Of a stretch of DNA of 64,000 nucleotides, positions 1,328 through 64,000 are shown piece by piece. Positions within the stretch are counted from its first letter, which is position 1. Each line of letters starts with the position of its first letter. The position numbers were made by a program, and so were the translations under genes. Under the pieces are notes generated by a model, which saw nothing but the letters and a program-made list of their open reading frames with translations, was not told the origin of the DNA and ran no database searches. Source of the stretch: Polyangium sp. 15x6 (lineage in GTDB: Bacteria > Myxococcota_A > Polyangia > Polyangiales > Polyangiaceae); NCBI RefSeq assembly GCF_029960785.1, contig NZ_JASBQE010000002.1, positions 248,001-312,000 on the forward strand. The letters are read 5' to 3'.

Positions 1328-1656
1328 GCGGGGCTTTGCCCCGCACCCCAGCAGGGGGCTGTCCGCCCCCTGCACCCCGGACCAGGCACGGCCTGGACCG
1401 AGGGCCGAGAAACCGCGCGATGCGCGGTTTCTCGGACGGGACAGGGGCAAGACCACGAGCGGCGTTGCCAAACATCAGCCTCGGGCAGACACGTCGGCGC
1501 TGCGGTTTTGCCTGGCAACGTCGTCGCCGGTCTTGCCTCGGCCTGTTCGATGAACTGCGCATCGCGCAGTTCATCGACCCCGGGTCCAGCGCTTGCGCTG
1601 GTCCGGGTCCAGGGGCGGACAGCCCCTGGTCGGGGTCCGGGGTGAAACCCCGGCGC
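1328..1656. repeat. Dispersed bipartite palindromic element, copy A (full)
   Basis: It fills the gap between two convergent genes. The left half carries a CCAGGC/GCCTGG hairpin and a 14-bp stem (arms 1405-1418 and 1422-1435, loop GAT). The right half repeats the same modules in reverse, with stem GATGAACTGCGC and its complement around loop ATC. In this copy the left stem reads GAGAAACCGCGC instead of GAAGAACTGCGC, and the other arm has changed to match, so pairing is kept. Confidence 0.85.
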
Positions 1657-1668
1657 GACGCCGTGGAA

Positions 1669-4600
1669 TCAAAGCGCCGCCGCGAACTCGCGGCCGAACT
1701 CCAGGGGGGATGGGCGTTCGGCTGGATCCCGCGTGGTGGCGGCCCGCAGGAGCTTGGCGATGGACGCGGGGAAGACGCGGAGGCGCTCGGCATCGTCGAA
1801 GGGATCGAGCCTCATGTGCGCGAGGATGCGGTCGCGGCCTGTCAGCTCGTCGAAAAAGGAGCGGCCCGTGGTCACGTTGTAAATCGTCCCGGCGAGCGCG
1901 TAGACGTCCGAGCGCGGGTCGAGCTCCACGGGATCCAGCACCTGCTCCGGCGCGATGTAGCCGGGTGTGCCTGCCACGAAGCGGCCTCCGACCTCGGGCG
2001 GGACGCGGATGGCCCGCACCATGCCGAAATCGATCACCACCGTCGAGAGCGGGGGCACGCGCCCGGGATCGCGGTGTTTCTCCGGGTCGAACCGCTCCCC
2101 GCCGGCGAGCGGCAGACGCAGCCACAGGTTTGCCGGCTTGATGTCGCGATGCACGAGACCCGCGCCGTGCAGCGCTGCGAGCCCCGCGCACGCGTCGAGG
2201 ACCACCTGCCGGAGCTCGAAGAGCGTCATCGGACGCGCCGACGCGTATTGCTTGAGATCCGCGCCGATGAGGTATTCGAGCACGAGGAACGGCGCGCCCT
2301 CCGAGACGCCGCGATCGATGATGTTCGCCACGTTCGGGTGATAGAGACCGGCGAGCGCATTGGCCTCCTCGACGAACGACGCGAGGATGCCGGCGCGCTC
2401 GGTCTCGTTGGCGCTGACGAGCGCGTCCGCCTTGGGGATCTTGAGCACGAAGAGGCGATCGGCTCCGGGCTTGCGCACGAGCCAAACCGAACCGATCCCG
2501 CCTTCGCCGAGCGGCTTGACCAGCTCGTAACCCTCGATGAGCTTGGGCTCCTTTTTCTTCGAGGTCGGCGGCGGCGGCGGCGTCCTGCGGATCGCACCGC
2601 GCACCGCGCCTTCGAGGAGCGCGGACGCGACGGGGCCGAGCGAGGCGAACCACACGTCGAGCATGCCGAGCTCCCGCGCGCGGATGGCGCGGGCGACGAG
2701 CGCGGCCACGCGGGGCGCGTTCTGCGTCGTGCGCGGCGGGAGCGAGTCCTCGTCGTCCTCGTTTGCCGCGTGCAGCGCCTTCACGGGATCCGCGAGCGCC
2801 GCCTGCAATCGATCCCCCGCGAGGACCAGCTTGATGCAGCGGATCTCGAGATCGGGCTTCGGACCCGCGGCCTCGTTGAAGTCTTCGAGCGCCATCGCCA
2901 GCTTCGTGAGCGCGCAGGAGAGCTCCGTGTCCTCGGCGTGCAGCGCGACGAGCGCCTCCTCGGCCTGGAACGCCCAGCCCGCGTCGCTCTCGGCCGACGA
3001 GACGGCCGTGCGCAGCGCCTCGGCCTGCTCGCAGCAGCGCGCGAGCGCGCTCGGCGCCATCATCGGCAGCGAGGTCGCGAGCTGACGCAGCATCGCGGGC
3101 CGATCGATGACGAGCGCCCACCACGCGGCGAACGGACCGAGCCAGCGGACGTCGTCGACCTCGCCGAGCGCCGTGCCCCGCGTCGTGTCCACGAGCCGCC
3201 AGAGCAGCGCCGAGAGCGCGTTCTTCAGAGCGGGCGGGAACTCCCGCGAGCCGCTGCCGAGCCCCTCCAGCTTGCGCAGCCAGAGACACGTGTCGTGCGC
3301 GGTCGGACCGCGGCCCGGGCCGAGCTCGTCGTCCTCGCCGCAAGCGTCGAGCGCGTATCCGCCGAGACGAACCGCCACGACCTCGAGCGCGAGATCCTCG
3401 TGCACGTCCGTCTTCTCGCCGCGCCGACGCTCCGCGACGAGATCGAGGATCTCCGCGGGCGAACGGGCCAGGGTCTTCCACGTCTCCTCGAGCTCGGGCT
3501 CGTCCACGGGGACGCCCGTGGGCCGCGTGGCGAGCAGCGGCCGCCAGAGGCGCACCGCGAACGCCCGCGCCGAGGATTCGAGCGCGTTCAGCGCGGCCGC
3601 GCGCTGCCGGAGCCGACCCCACCCGAGCGCGATGCGGCGCGCTTCATGGAACGTCGCCGCGAGCGAGGAGGCGAACCGCGCCGCGCGCGCGTCCGCTTCC
3701 TCGTCGTCGTACTGCGCGGCGAGGCGCATCAGGTTCTCCAAACCGAGCTCGAGGTCGAGCGGATCCCGCTCGGCTCGGTCGATGACGTCCGTCACCGCGA
3801 TGACCTCGATCCACCGGCGCGTCTCGTCGATCGACGCCGCGCGCACGTACCGCGCCTTCTCTCGGAGCGCGCGGAGCGTGGTCTCGATCTCGGGCTCCTC
3901 CACGCCACGACGGAAGAGCGTCGCGAGCCCACGCGCGAGCGCGCGCGCGGCGATCGCGCCCCCGTCGCCTTCGAGCACCCGCCTCGCGAGGCGATCCCAG
4001 AGCGTCTTGCGCTCGAAGAACAGGTACGGCGTCGCCGCGGCGACCGCGGCGAGCACCCACGCCTCTTCCTCGCGCGAGTCGAGGATGGCCACGAGCTGGC
4101 TCGCGAGAAACGCGAGCCGCTCGGCCGGCAGCGAGGCGAACGCGGTCGTCGCGCGTTGCCGGAGGACCACCGATTCACCGAAGACCCAGTCGAGCAGCGT
4201 GCCCTGGAGCTCCTCCATCACGCCCGTGAGGCGCCCGAGCGCGCGCGCCGCGTGCACCCAGACGAGCGGCTCCGGGTGCAGGAGCAAGGGCTGCAGCACC
4301 TGGAGCGTGCGGCCGATGAGCTCGGGATCGGCCGTCCGGGGCATGCCACGCACGCTGATTTCGAGGCATCGCGCGGCGAGGACGCGTCCACGGAGCGCGC
4401 CGTGTGCGGGCCCGCGGATCATGAGCTCGAACGTCTCGGGTGATCCCCAGAGCCAGGGCCCGAGCTCGGGGACCTCCAGCGCGCTCGCGCCGGCCTCCCA
4501 GATCAGGATCTCCAGCCGCGCGCGCACCTCGGTGTTCTCCGCCGACGCGAGCGCTTCCCCATCGCCGAGCAGCGGTGCACACGAGAGCGCGTCGAGCAGC

Positions 4601-4980
4601 GGCCCTTCGACGACCCGCGCGCGTGCGGCCTCGACGATCCGATCGCGGCCGATCGTCTCGGCGAGCGCCACGAGGATCGGGGCCATGCGCACGTCGCGCC
4701 GGAACGCGCTCGCCGCGCAGAACGAGAGCAGCACCTCGCCGGCCGGCTCGCCGTAGAGCGCGGCGAGCGCGGCGATCTCCTCGGCCGAACGCGCGAGCTC
4801 CGGGAGCTCGCGCCGGAGGAGCTGCGCGGCGGCGCGCGCGTCCTGGGGCAACGCGCGTCGATCGGCCTCGCTCTCGCCGCCCGCGCGGAAGTGCGCGCGC
4901 ACCGCCTCTTCGAGATCGGGGTTCGTCGCGTGGAGGCGCGTCAGGGTCGAGAGCGCGATCTGGATGTCTTCGGAGAGCAT
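1669..4980 (-). CDS. Large Ser/Thr protein kinase, C-terminal kinase domain
   Basis: From the ATG at 4980 the protein has 1103 residues. Residues 1 to about 800 are leucine/alanine-rich helical repeats resembling HEAT/armadillo scaffolds. The Hanks-type kinase domain is at the C-terminus (about 815-1095): glycine loop GEGGIGSV from residue 825, the VLKIPK lysine, HRDIKPAN with catalytic Asp946, DFG starting at Asp984 and IAPEQ. All catalytic residues are present, so it should be active. Myxobacterial kinases more often have the kinase domain first. There is no clear transmembrane segment, so it is probably cytoplasmic. The frame is open upstream of 4980, but that stretch overlaps the divergent KaiC-like gene. 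Confidence 0.9.
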   Translation of the reverse strand: MLSEDIQIALSTLTRLHATNPDLEEAVRAHFRAGGESEADRRALPQDARAAAQLLRRELPELARSAEEIAALAALYGEPAGEVLLSFCAASAFRRDVRMAPILVALAETIGRDRIVEAARARVVEGPLLDALSCAPLLGDGEALASAENTEVRARLEILIWEAGASALEVPELGPWLWGSPETFELMIRGPAHGALRGRVLAARCLEISVRGMPRTADPELIGRTLQVLQPLLLHPEPLVWVHAARALGRLTGVMEELQGTLLDWVFGESVVLRQRATTAFASLPAERLAFLASQLVAILDSREEEAWVLAAVAAATPYLFFERKTLWDRLARRVLEGDGGAIAARALARGLATLFRRGVEEPEIETTLRALREKARYVRAASIDETRRWIEVIAVTDVIDRAERDPLDLELGLENLMRLAAQYDDEEADARAARFASSLAATFHEARRIALGWGRLRQRAAALNALESSARAFAVRLWRPLLATRPTGVPVDEPELEETWKTLARSPAEILDLVAERRRGEKTDVHEDLALEVVAVRLGGYALDACGEDDELGPGRGPTAHDTCLWLRKLEGLGSGSREFPPALKNALSALLWRLVDTTRGTALGEVDDVRWLGPFAAWWALVIDRPAMLRQLATSLPMMAPSALARCCEQAEALRTAVSSAESDAGWAFQAEEALVALHAEDTELSCALTKLAMALEDFNEAAGPKPDLEIRCIKLVLAGDRLQAALADPVKALHAANEDDEDSLPPRTTQNAPRVAALVARAIRARELGMLDVWFASLGPVASALLEGAVRGAIRRTPPPPPTSKKKEPKLIEGYELVKPLGEGGIGSVWLVRKPGADRLFVLKIPKADALVSANETERAGILASFVEEANALAGLYHPNVANIIDRGVSEGAPFLVLEYLIGADLKQYASARPMTLFELRQVVLDACAGLAALHGAGLVHRDIKPANLWLRLPLAGGERFDPEKHRDPGRVPPLSTVVIDFGMVRAIRVPPEVGGRFVAGTPGYIAPEQVLDPVELDPRSDVYALAGTIYNVTTGRSFFDELTGRDRILAHMRLDPFDDAERLRVFPASIAKLLRAATTRDPAERPSPLEFGREFAAAL

Positions 4981-4991
4981 CAGCGGCCGGG

Positions 4992-5018
4992 AGAATACTT
5001 CCACGGCGTTCCGTTCAA
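4992..5018 (-). promoter_or_regulatory. Weak putative promoter of the kinase gene
   Basis: On the minus strand TTGAAC (5018-5013) and TATTCT (4997-4992) are 15 bp apart and end 11 nt before the kinase ATG. The spacing is short, so this is tentative. A direct repeat of about 12 bp (AATAC...CCACGGC) also lies in this divergent gap. Confidence 0.25.
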
Positions 5019-5049
5019 AATACCCACGGCTTGGCAGGGTCGAACTTTG

Positions 5050-6579
5050 ATGGCAAAACGTTGCCCTCCGATGATCGAGCCGAAAAGAAGCATCTACTCC
5101 ACCCGGCTCCGCACGGGGGTCGCTGGCCTCGATACGGTCCTCCTCGGCGGGCTCTTCCAGGGACACATCTATCTCGTCATGGGACGGCCGGGCGCGGGCA
5201 AGACGATCCTGGGCAACCAGATCTGCTTCCACCACGCGTCGCAAGGCGGCCGGACGCTCTACGTCACGCTCCTGTCCGAGGCGCACGAGGCGCTGCTCGC
5301 GCAGATGCACGGGATGCAGTTCTTCGATCCGACGCTCATCGGCACGGGGATCGTGTACCTCAACGGCTACGCGGCGCTGCGCGACGGGGGCCTCGAGGCC
5401 CTGCTCAAGATGCTGCGCGACGGGATCCGCTCGCAGGGCGCCACGCTGCTCGTCATCGACGGCATGGTCATGGCCGAGCTCGCCGCGATCCCGAACGTCA
5501 CCGCCTACAAGCGATTCATCCAGGATCTACAGACCTGGATCGGCCTCATGGGCGTCACGGTCGTGCTCCTGACGAGCTCGGATCCCAACAACGGGGTCCG
5601 CGCCGAGCACACGATGGTCGACGGAATCGTGGAGCTGCGCTGCCGGACGGCCGGGGCCCGAGCGCTGCGGGAGCTCAACGTGGCAAAGCTCCGCGGATCG
5701 AGCTTCCTCGAGGGTTGTCACACCTATCTCATCTCCAGCGAGGGCCTCGTCGTGTATCCGCGGTTCGAGGCGCTCTTCGGTTCACGCCGCACCGGAGCCC
5801 AGTCCGAGCAGCGCATCACGATTGGCATCGAGGCGCTCGACGAGCTGCTCGGCGGCGGCGTGTTCGAGGGCTCGACAACGCTGCTCCTCGGCCCCACCGG
5901 ATCGGGAAAGACCGTGCTCGGCATGCATTTCCTCCACGCCGGTGTACGCGCGGGCGAACCTGCGCTCTGCTTCGGTTTTTTCGAAAACCCGGCCGCAATC
6001 CGCGCAAAAATGGCGCGCTTCGGGATGACCACGGAGGACACCACGGGCCCCGGTCTGCTCGTCGAATGGCAGCCGTCGGCGGAGCTCCTGCTGGACGCGG
6101 TCGGGCACCGGCTCCTCGAGCTCGTGCGGACGCACGGCGTGCGCCGCCTCTTCGTCGACGGCCTCGCGGGGCTCAGGCGCGCGACCACGAATCCGGATCG
6201 CGTGCCCTCGTTTTTCTCGGTCCTCGTGGAAGAGCTCGCCGCGCTCGGCGTCACCACGATCCTCACGGACGAGACGCACGACATCTTCAGCGGCGACGTC
6301 TCCATCCCCGCCCAGGCCGCCTCGGCGTTTTGCCACAACATCCTGACGCTGCGCCAGGTGCAGGTCGAGGCGCAGATCCTGAGGCTGCTCGCCCTCACGA
6401 AGACGCGCGACAGCGCGCACGCGCGCGGGCTCTACGAATTCGAGGTTTCGCCGACCGGTATCGTGATCGGTCCGTCGTTCGAGCTCACGCAGGGCGCCGC
6501 GAAGGGCATCCCGGCGCGCGGAACGGAGCTGCCCCAGGTCCCACGGCCACGAGCACGAAAGGAAACCAAGCGCAAGTGA
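5050..6579 (+). CDS. Two-domain KaiC-like (RecA/RAD55 fold) ATPase
   Basis: The 509-residue protein has two tandem KaiC domains. The first P-loop is GRPGAGKT at 45-52 with Walker B LLVIDGM near 137, and the second is GPTGSGKT at 281-288 with RRLFVDG. The family includes cyanobacterial KaiC and many signalling ATPases in other bacteria. No kaiA or kaiB lies nearby, so I do not call it a clock. The next gene, 22 bp downstream, encodes a single receiver domain, and a histidine kinase is convergent beyond it, which suggests a signalling module. The start is taken at ATG 5050; ATG 5071 is an alternative, and neither has a strong ribosome site. Confidence 0.88.
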   Translation: MAKRCPPMIEPKRSIYSTRLRTGVAGLDTVLLGGLFQGHIYLVMGRPGAGKTILGNQICFHHASQGGRTLYVTLLSEAHEALLAQMHGMQFFDPTLIGTGIVYLNGYAALRDGGLEALLKMLRDGIRSQGATLLVIDGMVMAELAAIPNVTAYKRFIQDLQTWIGLMGVTVVLLTSSDPNNGVRAEHTMVDGIVELRCRTAGARALRELNVAKLRGSSFLEGCHTYLISSEGLVVYPRFEALFGSRRTGAQSEQRITIGIEALDELLGGGVFEGSTTLLLGPTGSGKTVLGMHFLHAGVRAGEPALCFGFFENPAAIRAKMARFGMTTEDTTGPGLLVEWQPSAELLLDAVGHRLLELVRTHGVRRLFVDGLAGLRRATTNPDRVPSFFSVLVEELAALGVTTILTDETHDIFSGDVSIPAQAASAFCHNILTLRQVQVEAQILRLLALTKTRDSAHARGLYEFEVSPTGIVIGPSFELTQGAAKGIPARGTELPQVPRPRARKETKRK

Positions 6580-8592: not shown

Positions 8593-8913
8593 GGCGCTTC
8601 GCCGGGGCTCTGCCCCGGGCCCCGCGGGGGCTGTTCGCCCCTCGACCCGAACCAGGGCAAGCCCTGGACTCGGGGTGGAAGAACTGCGCTCCGCGCAGTT
8701 CTTCCAACGGGCCCGTTGGACCGCGCTGCCAGTTGAAAGGGCAGCGCGGCTGTCTTGATGGACAGGGTCGTCGCTGGTCTTGCCTCGGCCTGTTCGAAGA
8801 ACTGCGCATCGCGCAGTTCTTCGACCAAAGGTCCAGCGCTTGCGCTGGTCCGGGTCCAGGGGCGGATAGCCCCGGTGGGGCCTGGGGCAACGCCCCAGCG
8901 CAGCGGCTTCGAC
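8593..8913. repeat. Dispersed bipartite palindromic element, copy B (full)
   Basis: It occupies most of the 500-bp gap between divergent genes. The left stem is 8677-8689 with 8693-8705 (loop TCC), and the right stem is 8795-8807 with 8811-8823 (loop ATC). The centre has its own hairpin, CGCGCTGCC pairing with GGCAGCGCG. The right stem reads GAAGAA/TTCTTC where other copies have GATGAA/TTCATC, a compensated change. Confidence 0.88.
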
Positions 8914-15200: not shown

Positions 15201-16495
15201 TGATCGTGGAGCAACATCGCCGCCCCCGCGTGCGAGAGCGTGAGCGCGGCGAGCGCGAAGAGCCTGGCATCGCGCTTTCGCGGCGTACGGCGGTCGAGGT
15301 AGAGCGCGACGGCCGACCACTGCGCGGAGGCGAGTCCGACGAAGACGAGCGGCGCGAGACGCGCGGTCAGGCTGTGATAGGGCCCGAGGCGCGCTTCCGG
15401 CGGCACATCGCTCCACGCGGGCGCGGAGCCGTGGATGTCGAAGTATTTTACGTACCAGCCGAGGAAGAGCGCGGCCGATCCCGGCACGACGAGCGCGGGT
15501 ACGAGGCGGAAGCCGCCGCGCAGCGCGACCCCGAGGGCCATGGATCCGAGGAGGAGCAGGTAGCCGAAGAGCGGCGCGGGTCGGTCCTGTCCGGTCGAGA
15601 GCACGACGGGGTTGGCGAGACCAGCGACGAGGACGAGGACGAGCAGCGACTCGGCGCGATGGCGGAGCGAGAGCCCGGCGCCGAGCGCGAGCACGAGGGC
15701 CACGGCGCCGAACGCCGCGGCCGGCGGGGCGAGCTTGTAGAGCGCGACGCTCGCCCAGAGCGACGCGACGAGCGTGGCGAGGCCGATGCCGGAGAGGGCG
15801 TGCACGAAGGCCGGGCGGGTCTTCGGCCGCAAGAGCTCCGCGGCGGCGAGGAGCACGACGCCGAGGACGGCGCCGAGGACGACGCGGCCGGTAGGCCCGA
15901 TCCAGGCGTTGTCGACGGCGTACTTGAAGAAGAACAGGGCGCCGAGGAGGAAGGCCGCCGCGCCGACGCGCGTGAGCCACGTGAGGCCGAGTTGTTCTTC
16001 GAGGGAGGGCGCGGGCTCCGTGGGCGGCGCGGAGGCGGGAGCGGCGGCGGCTTCCCGCGAGGCGTCCGTCAGCTCTGACGGGTGGGCGGCGGCTTCCCGC
16101 GAGGCGTCCGTCAGCTCTGACGGGTGGGCTGCGGCTTCCCGCGAAGCATCCGTCAGTCCTGACGGGTGGGCTGCGGCTTCCCGCGAGGCATCCGTCAGCT
16201 CTGACGGGTGGGCTGCGGCTTCCCGCGAGGCATCCGTCACCGCTGACGGGTGGGCTGCGGCTTCCCGCGAGGCATCCGTCACCGCTGACGGGCGGGCCGC
16301 GACCACGTGACCGACCGCTTCTGCCCGCGCGATCCGCCACTCCAGCTCCGCGACACGCGCCTCTCGCGCGTCGAGCCTCTCTTCGAGGTCCTTCACGCGC
16401 GCCTTCGCCTGCATGGCCAGGAGCACCGCGATGATCGGTGTGGCCAGGAACAACCCCACCAAGCCCAGGCCGAGCAGGACGAGGAGCGCCTCCAT
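12299..16495 (-). CDS. Giant membrane protein, DUF2339 and DUF3999-like fusion
   Basis: The 1398-residue protein begins with a membrane anchor and a coiled coil (KARVKDLEERLDAREARVAE). Six near-identical 14-residue repeats (HPSxxTDASREAAA) follow, then a very long stretch with more than 20 predicted transmembrane helices typical of DUF2339 (entry motif LTWLTRVGAAAFLLGALFF). From about residue 980 a large periplasmic beta-rich region follows that looks like DUF3999 (LLPVGKYASMRAVTGID...), ending in one more helix near the C-terminus. In many bacteria DUF2339 and DUF3999 are separate neighbouring genes; here they appear fused. Function is unknown, perhaps envelope or glycan related. The kinase gene at 16609 is divergent. 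Confidence 0.85.
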   Translation of the reverse strand: MEALLVLLGLGLVGLFLATPIIAVLLAMQAKARVKDLEERLDAREARVAELEWRIARAEAVGHVVAARPSAVTDASREAAAHPSAVTDASREAAAHPSELTDASREAAAHPSGLTDASREAAAHPSELTDASREAAAHPSELTDASREAAAAPASAPPTEPAPSLEEQLGLTWLTRVGAAAFLLGALFFFKYAVDNAWIGPTGRVVLGAVLGVVLLAAAELLRPKTRPAFVHALSGIGLATLVASLWASVALYKLAPPAAAFGAVALVLALGAGLSLRHRAESLLVLVLVAGLANPVVLSTGQDRPAPLFGYLLLLGSMALGVALRGGFRLVPALVVPGSAALFLGWYVKYFDIHGSAPAWSDVPPEARLGPYHSLTARLAPLVFVGLASAQWSAVALYLDRRTPRKRDARLFALAALTLSHAGAAMLLHDHVWVLSVLAIGLGIAAIALLGALGATELLAVPMAAAFVVFLVVSHDVPADQRLGLVSLFGGWTAVYVAGFVRKVLRRDPLPAGAAIAGSVAAGLFVVLASAQLLPEKPAIFVVLASIGSAAAAALALRARLGALHLAAVGFTSLVIAIAAGFVREAVPEHPLSPAFLGALVVFGIVHLVAVGLAALRTAEPVRWSSVLAGALATLAFVAAALASTSDEVPTFRALFTAAAGAADLALAAVIMRRRPEASVHLSMLAGLALGLFAAAIAFGLEGATITVLWAALGCVAAAIAARSREWGWLVVASLLFAATFVRLVALDVWGTHALVERFLATQGREGVLSVPLLRSPRATGLAGTSVSLLVAAYLLAAGAKRADAAKDEARASLDVAAGIAAIGGHALWITLAVLEVRTFVTTLPAPPPVPLDAPEWAAFAARLTAMLESQEGRLAMTTTLVLSVAAAALLALGFAARSALHRYLGLALFFLAVAKLAVWDVWSVERIYQILLLTGVGALLVAGGFLYARFSDRLIALMRTGGSALVILLVASRADAEELAPRLLPVGKYASMRAVTGIDAAGDHRLAVDDALYRASTSAELFADVRLVDGAGREVPRVVWEIPVHRLAPYVPGELLDPAWLQSGAAVATFRLPASSQHCRLLLDVTGETFLRRVRVETGDSREALGVVAEGPYVYRIRHERGTVQHMEIPYPKSEARLVRVTLLPADADEAGGRLSIVGGSFRCPSANDGANVFSEVSLGIEEIRRDEAERSTIVTLDAGAEGVPIQAITLDVGTTELRRRVDVTATSFREVWPAVGGGVLYRITPRPGVVLESMRLPIDETRKRYFRLVIHDEDSPPLVIRGARGEVRAREIVFRAATPGEHRLYVGDRTAAAPYYDLAAILDRTDRAEAPREAKMGPVLPNPRFGEADRAAALPFTERHRTALGAGLAVVLLALSFWAIRLLRNAGPADEGKPG
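16043..16294 (-). repeat. Six tandem 42-bp repeats inside the DUF2339-like gene
   Basis: Six units of exactly 42 bp encode a 14-residue repeat. Units differ at only a few positions (Ala/Glu/Gly and Val/Leu after Ser). The whole-codon period keeps the frame, and the near identity points to recent expansion of a flexible linker. Confidence 0.9.
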
Positions 16496-31109: not shown

Positions 31110-31117
31110 ACCGTGGA

Positions 31118-31417
31118 GCCGGGGCGCCGCCCCGGACCCCGGCAGGGGCTATCCGCCCCTGCACCCGGACCAGGCACGGCCTGGACCGAGGGGGGAAGAA
31201 CTGCGCGATGCGCAGTTCTTCCCACGGGCCCGTGAGACCGCGCTGCCGATCGAAATGGCAGCGCGGCTGTCTTCGTTGGCAGAGTCGTAGCTGGTCTTGC
31301 CACGGCCTGGTCGATGAACTGCGCATCGCGCAGTTCATCGACCCCGGGTCCAGCGCTTGCGCTGGTCCGGGTCCAGGGGCGGACAGCCCCGGTGGGGCCT
31401 GGGGCAAAGCCCCAGCG
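31118..31417. repeat. Dispersed bipartite palindromic element, copy C (full)
   Basis: It lies between the convergent serA and FAD-oxidase genes and fills the gap almost exactly. The left stem is 31193-31206 with 31210-31223 (loop GAT), and the right stem is 31312-31324 with 31328-31340 (loop ATC). The centre hairpin CGCGCTGCC/GGCAGCGCG is intact. Confidence 0.9.
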
Positions 31418-31438
31418 AATCGGCCTCCAGACGAGACG

Positions 31439-38008: not shown

Positions 38009-38032
38009 ATCGGGTCTCATCGCGAGCCGCTG

Positions 38033-38313
38033 CGCCGGGGCGCTGCCCCGGACCCCGCGGGGGCTGTCCGCCCCTCGACCCGGACCAGCGCAAGCGCTGG
38101 ACCTTTTGTGGAAGAACTGCGCGATGCGCAGTTCTTCCAGCAGGCCGGTGGCAAGACCAGGAACGTGCAGGCGGGGTGGTGGTTGGTCTTGGCCTGACCC
38201 GTTCGAGGAACTGCGCATCGCGCAGTTCCTCGACCCCGAGTCCAGCGCTTGCGCTGGTCCGGGTCCAGGGGTGGACAACCCCTGGTCGGGGTCCGGGGTG
38301 AAACCCCGGCGCT
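38033..38313. repeat. Dispersed bipartite palindromic element, copy D (full)
   Basis: It fills the gap between two convergent genes. The left stem is 38110-38122 with 38126-38138 (loop GAT). The right stem is 38204-38216 with 38220-38232 (loop ATC) and reads GAGGAACTGCGC, with a compensating change on the other arm. The centre differs from that of copies B, C and H. Confidence 0.88.
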
Positions 38314-38319
38314 ACGCCA

Positions 38320-48928: not shown

Positions 48929-48940
48929 GGGAGCGGCGGC

Positions 48941-49050
48941 GCTTCGCCGGGGCTCTGCCCCGGACCCCGGCAGGGGCTATCCGCCCCTGCACCCGGACCA
49001 GGCACGGCCTGGACCGAGGGTGGAAGAACTGCGCGATGCGCAGTTCTTCC
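48941..49050. repeat. Dispersed palindromic element, copy E (left half only)
   Basis: Only the left half is present: GGGGC/GCCCC hairpin, CCAGGC/GCCTGG hairpin and the 13-bp stem 49022-49034 with 49038-49050 (loop GAT). The centre and right half are absent, which shows that a half-unit can exist alone. Confidence 0.85.
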
Positions 49051-49216
49051 AGCGAGTCGGTTGGCACGTCAGCGGTCCCGTTGGCGGTACCCGCGCGCGA
49101 TTGACGCGTCAGCCGCCCTCCACGGCCAAACCCGCTCGAGCTTTTACGCGTCATTCCCGCCGCCCGAGCGTTGGCCCGGGTCCTGCTGATGCTGCCTCCG
49201 ACACCGGAGGCACACG

Positions 49217-51314: not shown

Positions 51315-51400
51315 GGCCGCACCCTCATGGAAGGAGCGGGCGTCTTGGGGTGAGGGCCGCAAGATAAGCAGGGGCCGAATGCTGTCATCGGCGGAATCTT

Positions 51401-51874
51401 GCTCTGTGGGCGGCCGCGCGGAGTGTGAGCACGCGCGAGGGGGGGCACGTCCTCGCGAACAGAGAGGGTGAACAGGCGCGGTGGGTCGCTCGTGCTCGCG
51501 CGCGATGAGCATGAGCACGCCTGGGGAGGCGCACGTCTTCGTGCGCGATGCGCGTGAGCACGCCCGGGGAGGCGCACGTCTTCGTGCGCGATGCGCGTGA
51601 GCACGCCCGGAGGGGCGCACGTCTTCGTGCGCGATGCGCGTGAGCACGCCCGGGGAGGCGCACGAGCTCGTCCCCAGAGAGGGAGAGGACGACCGGGGAG
51701 GCGCACGTCCTCACGCGCGACGAGCGTGATCACGCCCGGAGGGGCGCACGTCCTCGCGAACGGAGCAGGGTGAGGACGCCCGGGGGGCGCATGTACTCGT
51801 GCGCGATGAGCGAGAGTACGCCCAGAGGGGCGCACGCCCTCGTGGACGAAGCAGGATGAGGACGCGCGAGGGGA
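51401..51874. repeat. Array of eleven 43-bp tandem repeats
   Basis: Eleven imperfect units of 43 bp (one has 44) share a block GCACGTC(T/C)TCG and a block CGCCCGGGGAGGC, with a more variable interior. The best units (51531-51659) contain a hairpin of GCGCACG, loop TCTT and CGTGCGC. Two sub-types of interior are mixed. The period is not a multiple of three, so the array does not encode a regular protein repeat. I see no spacers of CRISPR type. Confidence 0.85.
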
Positions 51875-52077
51875 AGGGCCAGGACGCGGTTTGCGATGGC
51901 GTGGACGACGCGGTTGCCGAGGGCGCGGAGGCGACGGATCCGCACGTGCCCGGTTGCGGAGGGCTACGACGTGGCGCGGGACCTCGCGTCGCCGCGCCCC
52001 ATGACCCAGCTCGGATCTAGCGCTTGGATTGGCGCCGCCGCGCCCATGGCTCGGGTCCCGCGAGCGCCCCCTCCCAT
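51875..52077. other. No gene seen between the array and copy G
   Basis: Open frames cross this stretch on both strands but have no ribosome site or recognisable product. I see no feature I can support. Confidence 0.4.
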
Positions 52078-52226
52078 CAAGACAGCCGCGCTGCCCTTTC
52101 GACTGGCAACGCGGCCCGTTGGAAGAACTGCGCGGAGCGCAGTTCTTCCACCTTCGGTCCAGGCCGTGCCTGGTCCGGGTCGAGGGGCGGATAGCCCCCG
52201 CGGGGTCCGGGGCAGAGCCCCGGCGC
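52078..52226 (-). repeat. Dispersed palindromic element, copy G (half, reverse)
   Basis: Read on the minus strand this is a left half plus part of the centre. The stem is 52121-52133 with 52137-52149 (loop GGA, i.e. TCC on the other strand), and the centre text matches copy B. The opposite half is missing. Confidence 0.85.
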
Positions 52227-52384
52227 GGCGGCCCCAGCCCAAGAAGAGACCAATGCCCTCCTCGTACCCGCCCATGGTCCACCCCCTCTGTCAATATGGT
52301 GTCTGGGTTTCACGTGGCAACGGCTCGGGCACGAACACGGTCGCCACGCGGTAGGTCCTTGCGGCGTCGGGCAGGCTCGCCAAT

Positions 52385-55602: not shown

Positions 55603-55623
55603 CTCGCTGAGCTGGGGCCGCCG

Positions 55624-55928
55624 CGCCGGGGCGCCGCCCCGGACCCCGCGGGGGCTGTTCGCCCCTCGACCCGAACCAGGGCAAGCCCTGGACCTCAGGT
55701 GGAAGAACTGCGCTCCGCGCAGTTCTTCCAACGGGCCCGTTGAGCCGCGTTGCCAGTCGAAAGGGCAGCGCGGCTGTTTCGGTTGGCAGGATCGTCGCCG
55801 GTCTTGACTCGGCCTGTTCGATGAACTGCGCATCGCGCAGTTCATCGACCCCGGGTCCAGCGCTTGCGCTGGTCCGGGTCCAGGGGCGGATAGCCCCGGT
55901 GGGGCCTGGGGCAACGCCCCAGCGCGGC
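55624..55928. repeat. Dispersed bipartite palindromic element, copy H (full)
   Basis: It lies between two convergent genes. The left stem is 55701-55713 with 55717-55729 (loop TCC), and the right stem is 55819-55831 with 55835-55847 (loop ATC). It is very close to copy B in the left half and to copy C in the right half. Confidence 0.9.
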
Positions 55929-56014
55929 GGCTCCCAGATGAGACCAATGCTCAGACGAAGGCGCGCCCTCCCCGGGTATGGGGGGGCGCGCCTTCGTGTG
56001 CGCGGGCTTCAGGC

Positions 56015-60066: not shown

Positions 60067-60198
60067 GCCGGTCTTGACCCGGCCTGCTCGATGAACTGCG
60101 CATCGCGCAGTTCATCGACCCCGAGTCCAGCGCTTGCGCTGGTCCGGGTCCAGGGGCGGACAGCCCCGGTGGGGCCTGGGGCAACGCCCCAGCGCAGC
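60067..60198. repeat. Dispersed palindromic element, copy I (right half only)
   Basis: Only the right half is present: stem 60089-60101 with 60105-60117 (loop ATC), CCAGCGC/GCGCTGG hairpin and the GGGGC/GCCCC end. It lies between two tandem minus-strand genes. Confidence 0.87.
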
Positions 60199-60229
60199 GC
60201 CCCTAGATGCCCCCATGCTCCGTCTAGAA

Positions 60230-62641: not shown

Positions 62642-64000
62642 ATGAAACCGCACATCGATTCCAAGCGTTCCTTCTCGGTGCTCTCGGCCATCTTCGGGAC
62701 GGCTCGCAAATCGGTCGCGCCTTCGGATGGCATCGTGGGCGGGGATCCGCTGCGCGCAGCGGGATCCCTCGGCTCGATGTCTCCCCCTCCCCGGAGAGGC
62801 TCGCACCGGGGCGCGCTCGGCGTCGTGGCGGCCTTGGTCGTGGGGGGGCTTGTCGCCGCCGCGTGTGGCGCCGCGCCCGAAGACGCTCCGCTCGAAGACG
62901 AAAACGTCGACTCGTACAGCGCTGCCGCCACCTGCGAGACTTGCGAACCACCCCCCGAGGATCCCCCCCCGACCTGCACTATCTCGTGTGCGGGCAAGCC
63001 GTGCGGGGCAGCCAACGGCTGCGGCGGCAAGTGCGGCACCGGCTCCTGCCCGGCGGGCACGACCTGCGGCGGCGGCGGCGTGTACGCCCAGTGTGGGTGT
63101 ACGCCCCAGTGTTCGGGCAAGGCGTGCGGGGCGCCCGACGGCTGCGGCGGCGCGTGCACCGTCGGCACGTGTCCCTATGGGCAGGGGTGCGGCGCGGCGG
63201 GCGTGCCGGGCCAGTGTTGGACGCTGCCGGTGGGGCAGGGGGTCGAGTGCTTCGTGTTCAACGATGGCTACACCAACGTGGCCGGGCCGACGCAGGCGCT
63301 CACCTTCAAAGACGACGAGGGCCTGGTGTGCATGCCCGACGGCACCCCGGGCGGCACCTGCCGCAAGTGGTTCGGCCGCTGCCGCACCACCGACCCGAGC
63401 CACACGCCGGTGCTCTTCTCGGTCTTCAACGACGGCAGGGCCGACATGTCGGGCCCGTCGGATGCGGTGTACGTGCCGTCGCACCACAGGGCGTGCGTGC
63501 CCGACGGCTCCCCGGGCGGCTTCTGCCGCGAATGGTTCGGCGCCGCGAAGCTGCCTGACGGGCGTCCGGTCGAGTGCAAGCTGTTCGATGACGGCGGCGC
63601 GCAGAAGACGAAATACACGGACGACGATATGTTCGTGAACGGCCTTCCGGAGGTGTCCTTCGAAAACGGCACGCGTCGCAAATGGTTCGGCGAGTGCATG
63701 GTGGCCGGCTGCGGCGACGGCGTGTGCAACAACGGCGAGACGTCGTGGACCTGCTCCGACTGCACATGCGGCGATGGGGTCTGCAACGGCAGCGAGAGGT
63801 GTAGCACGTGTTCGAAGGACTGCGGCTCGTGCTGCGGCAACGGCGTTTGCGACAACAACGAGACGTGCAGCTCGTGCTCGCAAGATTGTGGCTCGTGCTG
63901 CGGCAACGGCGTCTGCGACAACAACGAGACGTGCAGCTCGTGCTCGAAAGACTGCGGCGAGTGCCCCCCGCAGACGTGCTCGGGGCAGACGGCCGGGTCG
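62642..64000 (+). CDS. Cysteine-rich lipoprotein, C-terminus off window
   Basis: The frame starts at ATG 62642 after GGGGAG, or at ATG 62777, which would give a more standard lipoprotein signal. The hydrophobic segment ends in VAAAC. Cys-rich repeats with CxxC and GxxC patterns follow, then a domain with WFGxC repeats (KWFGRC, EWFGAA, KWFGEC). Near the edge come CGNGVCDNNETCSSC repeats, also found in myxobacterial surface proteins. At least 453 residues are visible with no stop. It is divergent from the SARP-type regulator, which may control it. Confidence 0.82.
   Translation, partial: MKPHIDSKRSFSVLSAIFGTARKSVAPSDGIVGGDPLRAAGSLGSMSPPPRRGSHRGALGVVAALVVGGLVAAACGAAPEDAPLEDENVDSYSAAATCETCEPPPEDPPPTCTISCAGKPCGAANGCGGKCGTGSCPAGTTCGGGGVYAQCGCTPQCSGKACGAPDGCGGACTVGTCPYGQGCGAAGVPGQCWTLPVGQGVECFVFNDGYTNVAGPTQALTFKDDEGLVCMPDGTPGGTCRKWFGRCRTTDPSHTPVLFSVFNDGRADMSGPSDAVYVPSHHRACVPDGSPGGFCREWFGAAKLPDGRPVECKLFDDGGAQKTKYTDDDMFVNGLPEVSFENGTRRKWFGECMVAGCGDGVCNNGETSWTCSDCTCGDGVCNGSERCSTCSKDCGSCCGNGVCDNNETCSSCSQDCGSCCGNGVCDNNETCSSCSKDCGECPPQTCSGQTAGS
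63831..63960 (+). repeat. Two 66-bp repeats in the cysteine-rich gene
   Basis: Two nearly identical 66-bp units encode a 22-residue CCGNGVCDNNETCSSC-type repeat. They are in frame and suggest recent duplication; more may lie beyond the edge. Confidence 0.8.

Follow-up and report, generated by a model that had tools for sequence, protein, structure and literature searches.

Results

Palindromic elements in the window

The window analyzed in this study is a stretch of 64,000 nucleotides from Polyangium sp. 15x6, which belongs to a genus of soil myxobacteria. Near its start, a forward-strand gene at positions 726 to 1325 and a convergent reverse-strand gene at 1669 to 5310 enclose a full copy of a palindromic element (copy 1), which lies on the forward strand at 1328 to 1660 in the orientation B..A. 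The stop codon of the first gene (1323-1325) ends 3 nt before the start of the nhmmer limits of the copy (1329-1660), and the stop of the convergent gene is found 8 nt past its end. The element is a nested inverted repeat of approximately 330 bp that contains eight hairpins, four in each half. A half-unit consists of H1 (GGGGC/GCCCC), H2, H3 and H4 in this order, and the inverted second half follows beyond the centre. In copy 1, for which the limits of H1 to H3 were set by eye, the first half contains H1 at 1328-1344, H2 at 1351-1373, H3 at 1379-1399 and H4 at 1405-1435, the centre occupies 1436-1546, and the second half contains H4' at 1547-1577, H3' at 1583-1604, H2' at 1609-1629 and H1' at 1637-1653. 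RNA folding of positions 1322-1660 gave a free energy of -245.8 kcal/mol (z -14.6).

Four other full copies were found in the window, all on the forward strand: copy 2 (8595-8906; H4 at 8676-8706 in the B half and at 8794-8824, an A variant with the stem CGAAGAACTGCGC), copy 3 (31112-31423; H4 at 31193-31223 and 31311-31341), copy 4 (38027-38316, with a shorter centre; H4 at 38109-38139 and at 38203-38233, an A variant with the stem CGAGGAACTGCGC) and copy 5 (55619-55930; H4 at 55700-55730 in the B half and 55818-55848 in the A half). Half copies are located at 48940-49056 (B half, forward strand; H4 at 49021-49051), at 52065-52235 (B half with part of the centre, reverse strand; H4 at 52120-52150) and at 60082-60199 (A half, reverse strand; H4 at 60088-60118). 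The halves form terminal inverted repeats and are 80% complementary over 122 nt in copy 2 and 84% over 85 nt in copy 4. The window also contains tandem arrays at 51372-51885 (43-nt units), 16001-16336 (42-nt units) and 63767-63964 (66-nt units), the last of which appears by eye to be a Cys-rich coding repeat.

In the B half of copy 1, the H4 hairpin has a 14-bp stem and a 3-nt loop on the forward strand, with the arm CCGAGAAACCGCGC at 1405-1418, the loop GAT at 1419-1421 and the arm GCGCGGTTTCTCGG at 1422-1435. The remaining B-type stems of the window read GAAGAACTGCGC, and in the A half of copy 1, H4 (1547-1577, reverse strand) has the arms TCGATGAACTGCGC and GCGCAGTTCATCGA. The preliminary description had reported that the stem of copy 1 differs from the others and that the opposite arm is changed to match; this was borne out at exactly 1405-1435, where all 14 of the 14 positions pair. 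The further changes that it had reported, GAAGAA (8794-8824) and GAGGAA (38203-38233) against GATGAA, are also real, and the opposite arm is matched in each. Indeed, the five full and three half copies together carry 13 H4 hairpins with six different arms, and all 14 bp are paired in every one of them.

Two unlike halves

Profile searches returned 640 hits, of which 352 were near-full halves (313 unique), with partial hits and short C-type halves excluded. The dominant H4 arms were CGATGAACTGCGC (141) and GGAAGAACTGCGC (67). An exact A half (CGATGAACTGCGC and its complement) occurred exactly once in 103 of the 120 unique full elements, twice in none, and was lacking in 17, several of which carry A variants. 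When short halves were counted in, one exact A half was present in 112 of 137 full copies, two in none, and none in 25. The stems of the B half, to which 1405-1435 belongs, are variable (GGAAGAACTG, TGAAAAACTG, CGAGAAACCG and GGAAAAACCG are examples). C-type halves with the stem GCATCGAC numbered 26 unique sequences, all of which were perfect in a retrieval pattern that itself demanded a match of the outer 8 bp; eight full copies combine such a half with an A half, and the others stand alone. Examples are G004:C20:46931-47033 and G000:C198:83111-83216, and the empty site of one lone C-type copy reveals a duplication of 3-4 nt.

The mean identity among halves was approximately 75%. The possibility that the two halves of a copy pair over a distance or undergo gene conversion with each other was considered and rejected, as the identity within elements (0.715) was below the shuffled value (0.751). 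By eye, four copies with gaps of 551-744 nt between the halves contain tandem repeats or extra hairpin pieces, and one gap of 1559 nt contains a 499-aa ORF; no transposase was recognized by eye among the ORFs of these five long-gap cases in the sampled contigs. The copies L061:2157-2902 and G003:C116:24262-24840 have in common a centre enlarged to 744 and 577 nt, respectively, in which a degenerate H4 is embedded, and they appear to come from the same species.

Distribution and gene context

Matches to copy 1 were obtained in 6 of 39 genomes, its own included. All six belong to one genus and represent 6 of 6 Polyangium genomes, while none of the 33 genomes from 32 other genera gave a match. 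Of the 183 genomes searched in the order, 7 had matches to copy 2, namely the six of the genus and one other with a 55-nt fragment; in these genome-wide searches, at most 18 and 4 candidates were scored per genome. This genome contains 277 A-type H4 hairpins (with any loop), and five relatives contain between 24 and 219 each; the same pattern in reverse order did not occur. Exact matches to the H4 core at 8 non-Polyangium loci, among 80 listed, were attributed to chance because the similarity was weak and restricted to the core.

The gene context was determined with our own simple gene caller in about 1.64 Mb of sampled contigs. The elements are intergenic in these contigs, and one copy at a contig end overlaps a predicted gene. 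The 46 full elements were located between convergent genes in 30 cases, between tandem genes in 11, between divergent genes in 3 and at contig ends in 2, compared with 206 convergent, 719 tandem and 200 divergent pairs among all 1125 adjacent gene pairs. Of 87 scored ends of full elements, 70 face the 3' end of a gene and 17 face a 5' end, where the share facing 3' ends predicted from intergenic length was 43%. The median distance of the 3'-facing ends was 13 nt; 56 of the 87 ends lie within 30 nt of a gene 3' end, and none lies within 30 nt of a 5' end. Half elements gave 35 ends, 27 facing 3' (24 within 30 nt) and 8 facing 5' (1 within 30 nt). When the element was subtracted, convergent gaps had a median length of 27 nt (n = 30), compared with 11.5 nt for gaps that lack it (n = 166). 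In summary, the element tends to occupy the slot just 3' of stop codons, most often between convergent genes.

The site of copy 1 has a filled counterpart in G004 and is empty in G001, G002, G003 and G005, and the site of copy 3 has a counterpart in G002 and is empty in G001, G003, G004 and G005. These empty orthologous sites support turnover, and we infer from them that the element moves actively. Among nine scored pairs of sites filled in two species, one was clearly closer than random copies and eight were within or near the background, three of these eight being from one three-genome site; because of these eight, it is likely that sites are reused or that sequences are overwritten. Inversion of the element at shared sites was also considered, as the orientation differs in four of the nine shared full-length sites inspected by eye; independent insertion or overwriting accounts for this equally well, since the identities of eight of the nine scored pairs are within or near the background, and inversion was not retained. 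Direct repeats at a fixed offset showed no clear excess in 115 copies, with overlaps of 3-4 nt at single empty sites.

Other repeats were observed near these positions. Another hairpin repeat (CCCCTCTCCC-type with CGGGGTGAGG) occupies the same slot between genes where the element is absent, as seen in G005 for the empty allele of G000 C198:93470 and in G000 for that of G003 C114:93193. A CTGAGCATTGGTCTCATC-like motif lies just outside element ends, for example to the right of 55619-55930; its core was present in 19 of 344 half flanks (fewer than 1 expected from the background density), and it may represent an older outer end or a different repeat.

Covariation in H4 and in the other hairpins

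The H4 alignment consisted of 56 regions (55 distinct), 13 from the window and 43 from other loci, with at most three per arm type. Each half contributed the stretch that paired best, provided that it reached 10 of 14 pairs, which is a mild pre-selection for pairing. In this alignment 99.3% of 769 cells were paired, compared with a shuffled mean of 84.0 and with none of 500 shuffles as high. The covariation score was 0.438 (0.137 when shuffled, reached by 0 of 500 shuffles), and registers slid along the alignment were 35-54% paired. The number of further pair types (14, compared with 14.3 in shuffles) was the sole measure of five that did not exceed the shuffles. Changes on both sides of a pair were found in 131 cells and a change on one side in only 1.

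Each of the variable H4 pairs keeps Watson-Crick pairing in almost every one of the 313 unique halves, and the six top-scoring column pairs are all stem pairs. Under our own tree-based null, E < 0.05 was obtained for 2 of 39 stem pairs with all 313 halves and for 4 of 39 with the 165 non-A halves, the latter set also giving 2 non-stem pairs. On the tree, H4 showed 64 double-change steps, all of which ended in a Watson-Crick pair, and 25 single-change steps (5 G.T, 10 A.C), while the ratio of double to single steps was 18/20 for H1, 38/33 for H2 and 12/45 for H3; the steps are not independent events, because the tree uses the same columns and adjacent pairs share branches. The preliminary description had proposed that the fold itself is selected, or is copied during movement, in RNA or single-stranded DNA. 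Both the alignment and the tree support the conclusion that the H4 fold, rather than the H4 sequence, is conserved. Evidence for selection on RNA was not found, and the wording of that proposal combined several mechanisms. Turnover at sites is supported by the empty orthologous sites.

A minimum spanning tree connected the 21 different perfect 13-nt H4 arms in 20 pair steps, with a mean of 7.7 transitions and 12.3 transversions. Transversions thus made up 61% of the steps against a genome background of 51% (the differences between G000 and G004 were 49% transitions). There is no excess of transitions in the pair changes, and the difference between 61% and 51% is small. H4 haplotypes present in at least two unique halves were perfect in 18 of 19 cases, compared with 10 of 26 private haplotypes. 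Counted as distinct events over H1, H4 and the cores of H2 and H3, mismatches were G.T in 8 cases, A.C in 18 and other in 17, and no preference for wobble was seen in these paired cores. At the loose outer pairs of H2 and the base of H3, which lie outside this count, G.T cells are more numerous than A.C cells (110 vs 66 over the whole H2 stem and 78 vs 41 over the whole H3 stem). Of the 313 halves, 309 retain an A.A mismatch in H3, and in H2 the three outermost pairs are often unpaired.

Loop orientation and a matched change between orthologs

The reverse complement is also present for 10 of the 17 types of H4 loop, in the pairs GAT 179/ATC 6, TCC 52/GGA 3, AAT 16/ATT 1, TTC 4/GAA 1 and GCT 3/AGC 1. 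No such pairs were found in H1 (9 types, 306 halves), H2 (6 types, 299 halves) or H3 (13 types, 270 halves). The inversion signal in H4 had P = 0.02 under a uniform null and P = 0.087 under a positional null. The closest shared-site pair (G000 93470 and G004 30759) had an identity of 0.939, compared with at most 0.909 for other copies, and the differences between the two are a matched change from A-T to C-G and two loop letters, all within 17 nt.

Discussion

Our preferred explanation, to which we give slightly less than even confidence, is that the H4 stem is kept perfect by arm-templated copying (template switching) of a DNA hairpin in a REP/REPIN-like element. The arms would be matched because H4 folds as a DNA hairpin in which one arm templates the other (template switching, quasipalindrome correction), either during ordinary replication or during copying of the element itself. 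A mutation in one arm would be written into the other, and the loop would sometimes be flipped, as the pattern suggests. Copies with an unmatched H4 would rarely be the parents of new copies, given that mismatches are mostly private, and this dispersed, directional double-palindrome element of Polyangium would spread to the gap behind stop codons. Arm-templated copying would explain the missing intermediates, and it predicts inverted loops in long stems only. Several observations count against it. The loop-inversion signal is weak (P of 0.02 or 0.087), private mismatches are also simply younger, and the matched change between orthologs is a single event without a known parent sequence. Homogenized arms with few one-sided intermediates were found for H4 and not for the H3 base or the outer H2 pairs; the A.A mismatch of H3, the loose outer H2 and the single changes in H1 to H3 therefore indicate that arm correction is not general.

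Gene conversion between the arms had been named in the preliminary description as the process that could overturn its interpretation, and arm-to-arm copying does fit the data at least as well as selection. As a single reading, we would rank it above selection on RNA, with confidence that again falls a little short of even. If the fold were kept by selection on an RNA hairpin at transcript 3' ends, acting in bidirectional termination or in protection of the mRNA end, the convergent setting of the full elements, the short distances behind gene 3' ends and the very stable fold would all be expected. If selection acted on the RNA of a single strand, G.U pairs would be expected to persist and transitions to be favoured. 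Transcription from convergent genes covers both strands, so wobble would be excluded under such an explanation; a hairpin required to fold on both strands would exclude wobble as well, and for this reason the absence of wobble preference in the cores disfavours one-strand RNA selection only. No U-run terminator was found in or beside copy 1: a scan for Rho-independent terminators at 1200-1800, around copy 1 only, gave one hit (0.7 expected), which lies at 1285-1301 inside the upstream gene. The window also gave no match above the gathering score in Rfam 15, and sister species can lack copies. Since sister species lack copies at the same site, host selection on the stem of every copy seems unlikely, with the caveat that the halves average only about 75% identity. 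Taken together, we regard selection on a transcript hairpin as improbable.

A hairpin in single-stranded or cruciform DNA could instead be recognized by a mobilizing enzyme, such that only copies with an intact H4 move and no arm-templated repair is needed. The REP-like architecture, the presence or absence of copies at orthologous sites, the mostly private nature of mismatched arms, the pairing of two unlike halves in each copy and the conservation of GGACC boxes and of the H2 loop are all in line with this. However, it leaves the scarcity of intermediates and the inverted loops unexplained, and the two families for which nine genomes were searched, Y1 (PF01797) and Y2 (PF04986), gave matches in only 3 and 4 of the six Polyangium genomes, with four Y1 loci (about 3.2-3.4 kb) that lack the element. 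We consider this explanation unlikely, at roughly one chance in four. A Y2 (IS91-type) mobilizer was rejected as patchy and absent from G001 and G003. Finally, the covariation might merely be inherited from founders, if a few subfamilies with perfect stems were amplified recently and their hairpins swapped by recombination. The two dominant arms, CGATGAACTGCGC and GGAAGAACTGCGC, and the ties of arm subfamilies to A and B halves would fit, but swapping cannot create new perfect arms, and the 21 perfect arms include several private ones and are connected by one-pair steps. The closest ortholog pair carries a private matched change, and a mean identity of about 75% means that the halves are not all young. 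A founder effect alone is therefore very improbable.

The arm-templated copying that we prefer can be compared with known systems. REPINs are inverted palindromic doublets with predicted ssDNA or mRNA hairpins in which compensatory changes are common (PMC3116915), so that such changes are already known in hairpins of this kind. Like REPINs and BIMEs, the Polyangium element is an inverted palindromic pair around a spacer, is intergenic and high in copy number, and has compensatory hairpin changes, and its unlike halves resemble the heterodimers that many REP families prefer (PMC3733652). In contrast to REPINs, each half consists of four hairpins (about 120 nt), where a REP is one unit of 20-40 nt, and two exact A halves were never found in the 120 or 137 full copies. 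The CGTC-tagged REPs, described as dimeric and without an associated transposase, have stems of 8-9 bp in which the first two positions are complementary A/T (PMC3733652). The Polyangium element likewise consists of dimeric palindromes, and no Y1 or Y2 transposase common to its hosts was found; unlike in those REPs, CGTC occurs near H1 in 44 of 308 halves. A fixed tag within 12 nt before H1 was not seen, GTAG being present there in 46 of 308 halves and CGTC in those 44. REPs are recognized by TnpA (PMC8266576), and membership in a RAYT/REP system was rejected on the basis of the inconsistent Y1 gene, the Y1 loci without the element and the tag that is not fixed.

Template switching has been proposed as the source of matched stem changes in rRNA, where compensatory and loop changes are jointly depleted and where its role in the maintenance of short stems is "less clear" according to the authors (PMC8794818). 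In yeast genes, template switching was associated with spacer inversions solely at arms longer than 9 bp (PMC8604942), and the modestly supported loop inversion, seen in H4 only, would agree with this long-arm limit. The matched arm changes and, with that reservation, the inverted loops resemble template-switch homogenization as presented in these two reports; their subjects were hairpins in rRNA and coding genes of yeast, whereas the present case is one hairpin in hundreds of dispersed copies in one bacterial genus. MITE-like repeats such as ERIC, Correia, RUP and BOX are short and non-coding and have inverted ends. The likeness of the Polyangium element to them is one of description, and neither a clear target duplication of constant length, in 115 copies, nor a partner transposase recognizable by eye, in the five long-gap cases, was found for it. 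A search of the literature on Polyangium palindromic repeats, myxobacterial MITEs and Sorangium repeats, which covered few subscription journals, returned no description of the element among the papers listed.

More broadly, the element could represent a genus-specific family of large, two-sided hairpin arrays that fills the gap 3' of stop codons, frequently between convergent genes, that moves without a shared Y1/Y2 transposase and whose central hairpins are kept perfect by routine template switching, although we regard this combined proposal as doubtful. Covariation is the usual evidence for functional RNA structure, and strong covariation across many dispersed copies, without a sign of wobble-tolerant RNA selection in the covarying stem, warns against inferring function from covariation in dispersed palindromes. 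Within a large bacterial genome of 13.4 Mb, the element also marks a position between convergent genes that recurs, and its copies provide a dense data set for measuring template-switch correction in nature. If arm-templated copying is the correct explanation, the sequence of the hairpin would be free to drift while its fold stays constant, and the copies would preserve, in a bacterium, a natural record of double substitutions that arose instantaneously.
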